Assembly (NCBI GenBank): GCA_027314515.1
Contig: DAHVAR010000082.1
Location: forward strand, 1 to 64,000
From: Actinomycetota bacterium
GTDB lineage: Bacteria; Actinomycetota; Actinomycetes; Streptosporangiales; Streptosporangiaceae
Reading direction: 5' to 3'
DNA length: 64,000 nt
The notes under the pieces were generated by a model. It did no database searches and was not told where the DNA came from. It was given only the letters and a program-made list of their open reading frames with translations. The first letter of the stretch is position 1. Every line of letters starts with the position of its first letter. Positions 22,874-25,452 of the stretch are shown here, one piece after another. The translations under genes and the position numbers were made by a program.

Positions 22874-24013
22874 TCAGTGCGGGCCGGCCGGGACCCGCTC
22901 CGGCGGCCCCGCGGCGAGTTCGGGGAACTCGGCTAGCTCGTCCCACGCGGGGAAGCGCAGGTCGTCAAAGTCGAGCGCCCAGTCTGCCGCAGGGAACAGG
23001 CTCCGGCCGCCGCCGGACGGCCCTGGCGGCTGCGGACCCGGGTCACGCGGCCCGCCGCCGCCCCCGCCGCCACCTGGCGCGCGGCCGGATCCGCCTGCGG
23101 CGAAGACCCCGCCCCAGGCACCGAGCCCGGCCCCGACCACCGGGAAGCTGATCAGGACGAGCAGGAACCCTGCCGCGGCCTGGCTGAAGCTCACCTGAAA
23201 GTCGGTCACGAACTCGGGCGCGAGCGAATGGCCGCGGCCGGGCTGCAGGAGCCGGTCGGGCAGCGTCCACTGAATGCTGCCCGCCGCGTGCGGCACGAGC
23301 GCGATCGTGGTAATGCCGAGGACCGATACGACCAGCGCGGCGGCGACTCCGACGCACACCCCGGCGGCCAGGCCCTGGCGGACGCGTGCGTCGGTGAGCG
23401 CGAGCGGGCTGTCCCGCCGCGAGGTGCGCCGCGCGGCCGCGATTGAGGCCCGGATGGCGATGTAGAGCACCAGCAGCACCACGGCGATCTTGCCCAGGTC
23501 ATACAGGCACGCCAGCAGCCGGTTCGCGATATGCACCTGGTTGGCCAGCGGCCGGAGTACGAATATGGCCAGGCCGAGCAGGAGCCCGACGCCGGTTCCG
23601 ATGGCGAGCGTGGCCGGCCGGGCTGGCGGACGCTGTGCCGTGACGGCGAGGAGTGCCGCCACGTAACCGGTGATCACGATGAGGAACACGATCTCGCCGA
23701 ACCACACTCCCGCCAGCGAGGCACCGGTCAGCCGCGCTAGCTCGGACTGCTCGACGTCAGCCTTCACGAGCATGAGCGCGAGAATCGATGCGTAGCCGGC
23801 GATGCGCAGCATCCGGAGCAGCGGCTGACTGCTGACGTGCCCGAACTTGCGGCGGACAAGCACCGGCAGGCAGGCCAGGATGAGCACGGCCGCAACTACG
23901 TCGACCCGGCCGATCAACGTTGCGGGATTTGCCGCCGTGCCCGGCCAGCCAGCCCAGCCCAGCGCCGCTACCGCAGCGGCCGATGTCAGCCAGTACCCGA
24001 CCGCGGCTGCCAT
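22874..24013 (-). CDS. Multi-pass membrane protein of unknown function
   Basis: About 379 residues. Hydrophobic segments lie near residues 5-25, 40-56, 70-85, 100-124, 135-152, 170-190, 213-240 and 275-300, so roughly eight membrane helices. A Gly-rich linker and a Pro/Gly/acidic cytoplasmic tail (DWALDFDDLRFPAWDELAEFPEL) follow. No enzymatic motif is recognised. ATG 24013 is preferred because AGGAGG lies four bases before it; an ATG eight codons upstream has none. It converges on the acyl-CoA dehydrogenase gene across the palindrome at 22738. Confidence 0.75.
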   Translation of the reverse strand: MAAAVGYWLTSAAAVAALGWAGWPGTAANPATLIGRVDVVAAVLILACLPVLVRRKFGHVSSQPLLRMLRIAGYASILALMLVKADVEQSELARLTGASLAGVWFGEIVFLIVITGYVAALLAVTAQRPPARPATLAIGTGVGLLLGLAIFVLRPLANQVHIANRLLACLYDLGKIAVVLLVLYIAIRASIAAARRTSRRDSPLALTDARVRQGLAAGVCVGVAAALVVSVLGITTIALVPHAAGSIQWTLPDRLLQPGRGHSLAPEFVTDFQVSFSQAAAGFLLVLISFPVVGAGLGAWGGVFAAGGSGRAPGGGGGGGGPRDPGPQPPGPSGGGRSLFPAADWALDFDDLRFPAWDELAEFPELAAGPPERVPAGPH

Positions 24014-24182
24014 CCGGCCTCCTAACGTCAGCCACATGCTCTCAGGTTCCAGGCTAAAGCAGGCTGGCCGCTTAGTGAACGTCGGCGTAAGGAACGCTGA
24101 GTGCCCGGCAGCGGGTCGCTGCCCTTCGGGTCTGCCGTTTCACGCCAATGACATGTGGTTTCGCACTGACCGATGCCGGGTA

Positions 24183-24198
24183 TCGAATGAACGTTCGA
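24183..24198. promoter_or_regulatory. LexA/SOS-box-like operator
   Basis: TCGAATGAACGTTCGA matches the actinobacterial SOS box TCGAAC-N4-GTTCGA at 11 of 12 fixed positions, and its outer arms ATCGAA/TTCGAT are perfectly inverted. It ends nine bases before the GTG of a small gene, where LexA binding would block transcription or initiation. Confidence 0.6.
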
Positions 24199-24206
24199 TC
24201 TGTGGG

Positions 24207-24446
24207 GTGAGTGCAGTGAAGGGTGACCGCATCGAGATCGTGGTCGACGTGGGTGATGGCACCCGTTCCTATGAGGTGACGGCGACCAGGGCAGGGCGGC
24301 GCGTAGAGGTCGCCAACCGCCGTGGTGTGGTGGAGGTCAGCGAGGTGACGCGGACCGGCAGTCCGGTGCGCACCGCACGCTTCATGGCCAGCCGGATCGT
24401 CTCGCTGGTCGAGTACCCGGCAGCCGACCGGGCTCCCGAACGCTAG
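24207..24446 (+). CDS. Small beta-rich hypothetical protein under an SOS-like box
   Basis: About 79 residues from GTG 24207 (an alternative GTG is at 24216). The sequence alternates charged and beta-branched residues: DRIEIVVDVGDGTRSYEVTA, then RRVEVANRRGVVEVSEVTRT and a last FMASRIVSLVEYP. That suggests a small beta barrel or sheet with many Arg and Glu. No family is recognised. Codon use has the strong G/C third-position bias of neighbouring genes, and the short length with a LexA-like operator directly upstream argues for a real, damage-inducible gene. Convergent with the PHP gene, 10 bases between stops. Confidence 0.6.
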   Translation: MSAVKGDRIEIVVDVGDGTRSYEVTATRAGRRVEVANRRGVVEVSEVTRTGSPVRTARFMASRIVSLVEYPAADRAPER

Positions 24447-24456
24447 CGATCAGACG

Positions 24457-25452
24457 CTAACGATCAGACGCGGTCAGCGCTCGCCATGTCCTGGCGTTGA
24501 TGACCCGGTCGGCGCCGATGCCGAATCGCTCCGCTCGCTCGCAGCCACTGCCGATCCAGTCGAGCTGACCAGGCGCGTGCGCGTCGGTGTCGATGGCGAA
24601 CAGGCAGCCGGTCCGCGCTGCCAGGCCCAGTAGCTGGTCCGGCGGATCCTGCCGGTCCGGCCGGCAATTGATCTCCACCGCGACGTCGTGGTCGCGGCAG
24701 GCCGCGAACACGGCGTCCGCATCGAACTGCGACTCCGGCCTGGCGCGGCCGACTACTCTGCGGCCGGTGCAGTGCCCGAGCACGTCGACGTGCGGGCTGG
24801 CGATCGCCGTGACCATGCGGCTGGTCATCGCTGGCGCCGGCATCCGCAATTCGGAGTGAACGCTCGCGACCACCATGTCGAGCTCGGCGAGCAGGTCGTC
24901 GCGCTGATCGAGGCTCCCGTCCGCAAGGATGTCGACTTCGATGCCGGTCAGGATGCGGAACGGGGCAAGCTCGCTGTTGAGCCGGGCGACGAGGTCAAGC
25001 TGCTCCTCCAGGCGCTGCGCCGACAGCCCATTCGCCACCGTGAGCCGCGGCGAGTGGTCAGTCAGCGCGAGCCATTCGTGACCGAGTTCGCGCGCGGCCT
25101 CAGCCATCTCCGCTGGCGGGCTGCCGCCGTCAGACCAGTCGGAATGGGAATGGCAGTCACCGCGCAGCGCAGCCCGCAGCCCGGTCCGCTCTGGCGGCGG
25201 GGACTCGAGCAGCAACCGCTCCAGGTAGGCAGGGTCCTCCCCGGCCATTGCCTGGCGGACCGCCTCCGCGGTAGCCGGCCCGATTCCGCTGAGCTCAGTC
25301 AGCGTGCCGGCCCTGGTCCGCTGCTCGAGTTCGCCGGGCGGCAGGCCGGACACCACCTGAGCAGCCCGGCGGAAGGCCCGCACCCGGTAGGTCGGCGCGC
25401 TTGTGCGCTCAAGCTGGAAGGCAATCTGCCGCAGTGCCCTTGCCGGGTCCAT
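24457..25452 (-). CDS. PHP-domain phosphoesterase with N-terminal helix-hairpin-helix region
   Basis: 331 residues. Residues 1-75 resemble the DNA polymerase X-like 8-kDa/HhH region (LRQIAFQLERTSAPTYRVRAFRRAA and LTELSGIGPATAEAVRQAM). The rest is a PHP domain with the metal motifs GDCHSHSDWSDGG near 98, LALTDHSPRL, GIEVDILADGSLD, VASVHSELRM, LGHCTGRR and AIDTDAHAPGQLDW. This is the PolX C-terminal arrangement without the polymerase palm, so a stand-alone 3' exonuclease or phosphatase is likely. It lies beside a gene with an SOS-like box, consistent with DNA repair. The upstream TauE frame overlaps its start by 154 bases. Confidence 0.85.
   Translation of the reverse strand: MDPARALRQIAFQLERTSAPTYRVRAFRRAAQVVSGLPPGELEQRTRAGTLTELSGIGPATAEAVRQAMAGEDPAYLERLLLESPPPERTGLRAALRGDCHSHSDWSDGGSPPAEMAEAARELGHEWLALTDHSPRLTVANGLSAQRLEEQLDLVARLNSELAPFRILTGIEVDILADGSLDQRDDLLAELDMVVASVHSELRMPAPAMTSRMVTAIASPHVDVLGHCTGRRVVGRARPESQFDADAVFAACRDHDVAVEINCRPDRQDPPDQLLGLAARTGCLFAIDTDAHAPGQLDWIGSGCERAERFGIGADRVINARTWRALTASDR

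Follow-up and report, generated by a model that had tools for sequence, protein, structure and literature searches.

A conserved family of small actinobacterial proteins very likely under LexA control in some lineages

Introduction

Is a short actinobacterial gene that lies behind a LexA-type box truly controlled by LexA, and what might its product do? The question arises from the window, the 64,000-nucleotide stretch of DNA analyzed here (contig C127 of a 5.86 Mb genome in 280 contigs). A preliminary description proposed that the gene may encode an SOS-induced checkpoint or repair factor. The features that bear on this proposal are as follows.

24178..24183, plus strand: GGGTAT, counterpart of the -10-like GGGTATAA element of relatives (column counts, 41 boxed loci)
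24183..24198, no strand assigned: LexA-type operator TCGAATGAACGTTCGA (from sequence; conserved in homologues, with the same form before imuA' and lexA)
24204..24209, plus strand: GGGGTG, probable ribosome-binding stretch 6 nt before GTG 24216 (inferred from sequence)
24216..24446, plus strand: gene for a small predicted beta-barrel protein of 76 aa, or 79 aa from GTG 24207 (homologues; AlphaFold2 model)
24457..25452, minus strand: convergent gene for a PHP/HhH protein of the PRK07945 type, probably only a neighbor (domains; adjacency in 1 of 80 loci)

Results

The small gene and its family

The open frame runs from GTG 24207 to TAG 24446 and would code for 79 aa, the length first given for the protein. 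Because homologues begin M-K-G-D and the GGGGTG stretch overlaps the 24207 codon, GTG 24216 is the likely start and the protein is probably 76 aa long. That it is beta-rich and rich in Arg and Glu still stands, with an all-beta model (below) and 14 Lys/Arg plus 11 Asp/Glu among the 76 residues.

Homologues are encoded in 31 of 60 related genomes and, in a sample of 396 genomes of the phylum, in 34. A species-level collection contains at least 580 pattern-confirmed loci. Mean column identity is 76% over 40 homologues. Two wrong rows (L210 and L211) were taken out of alignment A4, which gave A5. The protein had been described as belonging to no known family, and our searches agree. Pfam returned only sub-cut-off matches, to PepSY and DUF3095, NCBIfam no family match, and PHROGs nothing below E 0.1; the best match among PDB sequences was a coatomer WD40 protein at E 0.1. 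Of the 40 members, 24 match DUF3095, with E 0.0007 at best; in the window protein the match covers one beta stretch and is below the cut-off, and we set it aside as chance. A literature search found no report of the gene. Judged by sequence, the small protein is a member of a strongly conserved, unnamed actinobacterial family.

Genes around the homologues

We compared gene order in 80 named loci, the best-matching 80 of more than 580; the set overlaps with that of the relatives and its fractions are not population frequencies. In the window, the small gene and the convergent gene meet stop to stop, at 24446 and 24457 respectively. The latter does code for a PHP/HhH protein as first described, with PHP and HHH_8 domains (NF005928/PRK07945). 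Its repair-type character had been used as an argument for the role of the small protein, an argument that fails since the PHP gene is beside a homologue in only one of the 80 loci, from a sister MAG. We therefore rejected it as a functional partner or as part of a repair operon.

Gene contexts vary by lineage. A TauE/SafE gene is upstream of the homologue in about 51 of the 80 loci. It is not closely related to the TauE of the window (blastp E 0.28), and tblastn at E 1e-3 found no gene of the upstream type elsewhere in the window. The divergent membrane-protein gene of the window (22874-24037, minus strand) has a homologue in two of the 80 loci. At a distance of about 146 nt (24037-24183), the operator is upstream of this gene too and could in principle control it as well.

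ImuA' does not track the small gene. It is encoded in 15 of 31 genomes with the small gene and in 11 of 29 that lack it (Fisher p 0.45), and in 6 of 9 genomes with a boxed homologue against 9 of 22 (p 0.25). These counts are of matches over the family cut-off, weaker ones being taken as RecA (checked by eye in the window's own genome only). Gene content points to no functional partner.

Conservation of the box

The site TCGAATGAACGTTCGA at 24183-24198 has a single mismatch to TCGAAC-N4-GTTCGA, as reported in the preliminary description. Alone it is not significant: the genome contains 27 sites with no more than one mismatch, and a reversed control pattern gives 29. With up to two mismatches, the window has three sites against 1.7 expected. 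It is the conservation of the box in homologues, and not the single site, that makes the case.

A box with at most one mismatch is found within 100 bp of the start in 42 of the 80 loci, themselves the best of more than 580. They include all 32 Actinomadura, both Actinoallomurus, the one Thermomonospora, the one Spirillospora, and 6 of 12 MAGs. By the same measure none was found in Nocardia (0 of 11), Nonomuraea (0 of 10), or Sphaerisporangium (0 of 6), nor in the single Streptomyces (L105), Streptosporangium, Microbispora, Phytoactinopolyspora, and Prauserella loci among the 80. The Streptomyces homologues in the phylum set are also without it. Among the relatives, 31 matches gave 30 scored loci (G032 had none). 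Seven of the 30, the window's own included, have a box with at most one mismatch and 23 do not; two more loci have one with two mismatches. Homologues sharing the upstream box, one of the checks first proposed, therefore exist, but several whole lineages lack it, and LexA control, though very likely, would be lineage-dependent.

In most homologues with the box, it falls between -27 and -37 relative to the start. With L070 omitted from the column counts, its box being 90 nt from the start, 41 boxed loci could be aligned. The half-sites TCGAA and GTTCGA are invariant in all 41 and most flanking columns are variable. Position 6 is T in 39 loci, whereas L114, an Actinomadura, keeps the canonical C, and the spacer ATA is partly fixed. 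Directly upstream of the box is a GGGTATAA element, the columns just before the box being GGG in 95-100%, T in 95%, and A in 90%. This element, GGGTAT in the window, is probably a -10-like part of the promoter. Invariant half-sites behind it have the appearance, in sequence, of a repressor site over a promoter. Nonomuraea and Sphaerisporangium have the same GGGTAT element about 10 nt before the ATG and no box, which suggests a leaderless transcript without the box in these genera.

In the phylum set, upstream regions of 26 of 29 loci were scored; L186, L193, and L209 could not be read. All three scored genomes of f60, a distant family in this set, have TGGAAC-N4-GTTCGA 35-36 nt before the start of the homologue. 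In place of the box, seven Nocardia loci (L085, L087, L091, L096, L099, L113, and L122) have in common another sequence before the gene, roughly gcggcgaaaa...tggaaaagcgga(c)aattg.

Because the Nocardia, Nonomuraea, Sphaerisporangium, and Streptomyces homologues and 23 of the 30 relatives lack the box, the basic job of the protein need not be SOS-related. It is a real possibility, one we take seriously while not favoring it, that the protein has a housekeeping function with no connection to DNA damage and that LexA control, with which this account is compatible, was merely gained in some lineages. Retention of the gene without a box in those four genera is consistent with such a role, as are the frequent upstream TauE/SafE gene and the failure to find a conserved repair neighbor in the 80 loci. 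Against it, the box recurs in the distant f60 family and is fixed in Actinomadura, suggesting that damage-linked expression of the gene is useful.

LexA as the regulator

We next consider which regulator the box would serve. In the window's own genome imuA' (NF058630, E 4.3e-42) is preceded by TCGAATACACGTTCGA, the box starting 26 nt before the start codon. Nocardia vulneris has TCGAATATACGTTCGA near imuA', between that gene and the start of a second one, and Thermomonospora echinospora has TCGAATGAAAGTTCGA 207 nt upstream of lexA (TIGR00498). The sole two TSGAAY-N4-GTTCGA sites in each of two genomes of the same genus, G002 and G003, are before the small gene and before imuA'. One-mismatch sites are also found 187 nt before the window genome's lexA and about 343-358 nt before its recA. 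LexA is the best candidate regulator because the variant box, with T as its sixth base, also precedes undisputed SOS genes.

As for membership in the LexA regulon, we found an operator in the promoter, the same form of operator at SOS genes, and genes for both LexA and RecA in the genome (the RecA frame was read by inspection). Control of the small gene by LexA, as originally proposed, is now well supported by comparison, through the box in homologues and the same variant before imuA' and lexA; on this sequence evidence it is very likely.

TCGAAYN4RTTCGA occurs five times in the genome, before the small gene, imuA', and three related DUF222-type loci, and its reversed control is absent. Two of the DUF222-type loci were scanned; one matches DUF222 (E 4.2e-14) and the other, truncated by a contig end, gives no such match. 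All three (L157, L158, and L159, on contigs C144, C254, and C107 of this genome, G000) have the identical box TCGAATCTGAGTTCGA. Rv3074 and Rv3776 of M. tuberculosis are presumably also of the DUF222 type. Both have LexA boxes, are induced by moxifloxacin, and have homology with HNH endonucleases (PMC7911356).

The LexA motif of S. venezuelae is tCGAAC-N4-GNNCGa (PMC9380542). The system described here shares with that LexA/SOS regulon a box of 16 bp close to the start codon and the presence of genes for LexA and RecA, and here too imuA'-type mutagenesis genes fall in the same set. The two systems differ in that position 6 is T here and C in the Streptomyces consensus, and the Streptomyces homologues of the small gene lack a box. 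Table 1 of that report has no obvious counterpart of the small gene, though homologues there are expected to be boxless anyway (PMC9380542).

The nearly fixed T at position 6 could instead be the mark of another, dedicated repressor with a LexA-like site, and the partly fixed ATA spacer would fit such a protein too. We think this unlikely. The TCGAAT form also precedes lexA in Thermomonospora and imuA' in the window's genome, G002, G003, and Nocardia vulneris. Moreover, the canonical C is found in Actinomadura L114 and the f60 genomes have TGGAAC...GTTCGA. That the box is a chance match, as the similar genome-wide counts of sites with at most one mismatch and of the reversed pattern might allow, is highly improbable and in practice refuted by its conservation among homologues, 42 of 80 loci having it compared with 3 of 16000 upstream regions after shuffling, and by the five TCGAAYN4RTTCGA sites against none in the control. 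Other, neighboring genes of the same loci had a box in 3 of 815 cases, counted within 200 bp, and over ten genomes TCGAAY-N4-RTTCGA gave 65 sites against 4 in the control.

Separately, LexA-type boxes were seen before other genes. Three Thermomonosporaceae-type genomes have exact boxes before a family of 129-132 aa proteins (L147, L154, and L168), for which no Pfam or NCBIfam match was found in the one member scanned. An AAA_16 ATPase family likewise has exact boxes in three Thermomonosporaceae-type genomes (L145, L152, and L171), AAA_16 being confirmed in the one member scanned. SAV_6107-like HEPN genes are behind exact boxes at L144, L150, and L164; one of the three is Pfam-confirmed and the others were judged by sequence. 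In Thermomonospora echinospora, boxes precede genes for two proteins of 80-83 aa (L165 and L170) for which no Pfam or NCBIfam match was found.

Predicted fold

The AlphaFold2 model of the small protein is all-beta with six strands (pLDDT 93.7, pTM 0.79). Read from strand order and structural matches, the strands are predicted to form a small barrel. Foldseek found no match in the PDB at E <= 0.001. VIA-align gave Z 4.8-6.0 for YgdR/DUF903-type barrels, 4.2-4.8 for many Hfq chains, and 4.7 for Rv3208A. Values of Z below 8 are middling and may reflect only the common arrangement of small barrels.

The Sm/Hfq and YgdR (DUF903) barrels are likewise small and five- to six-stranded, but the model has no N-terminal helix and there is no sequence match to them. 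Neither an Hfq nor an LSM family is among the Pfam matches up to E 1 for the 40 members. Rv3208A, which we take to be a DUF3107 protein, is also a small actinobacterial protein (rmsd 2.7 over 55 residues at Z 4.7). We rejected a relation to DUF3107, as the hhalign probability is at most 1% and the genome has a separate DUF3107 gene, and also one to the WYL domain (hhalign E 0.17 over 5 columns), the sensitivity of both comparisons being limited by low-diversity alignments (Neff 1.6-1.8). The 50 VIA-align matches shown include no WYL or PafBC chain, which excludes nothing.

In the damage regulator PafBC the WYL domains adopt Sm folds, and Hfq had not been found in actinobacteria (PMC6789036). 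For these two reasons an Sm-like reading of the model is of interest, and an Sm-like fold of the small protein is a lead only. It would be a long step further, and one we consider improbable, to see the family as a stand-alone Sm-like barrel, forming an RNA- or ssDNA-binding ring of the Hfq type, that is LexA-controlled in several lineages and acts beside ImuA'/DnaE2 in the damage response.

Discussion

We favor the reading that the promoter of the small gene is repressed by LexA and released upon damage; this is probably correct. What was computed here comprises the box with its conservation and position, its occurrence in the same form at imuA' and lexA, the protein family, and the fold prediction. 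Binding by LexA and induction are inferred, as is everything said of how the protein acts. LexA would occupy TCGAATGAACGTTCGA, located immediately past the -10 element, where it would cover the probable start of transcription and so block transcription of the gene. Upon damage, activated RecA would lead LexA to cleave itself. With LexA gone, the small gene would be induced alongside imuA' and further genes of the SOS response. Its product would be a compact six-stranded beta barrel, strongly conserved and Arg/Glu-rich. Our best guess is that in the damage response it would serve as a small adaptor that binds nucleic acid or protein; the checkpoint or repair role first suggested for it is a guess.

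SulA, YneA, DinI, ChiZ, and DivS are small SOS-controlled proteins. The protein described here resembles them in being the small product of a gene with a LexA-type box and is set apart by its all-beta predicted fold and the lack of a family match, in both respects by description only. A literature search on Actinomadura, LexA, and SOS found no study of this response. With LexA control of the small gene, the probable SOS regulon of Actinomadura and related bacteria would gain a widely kept, unnamed protein family.
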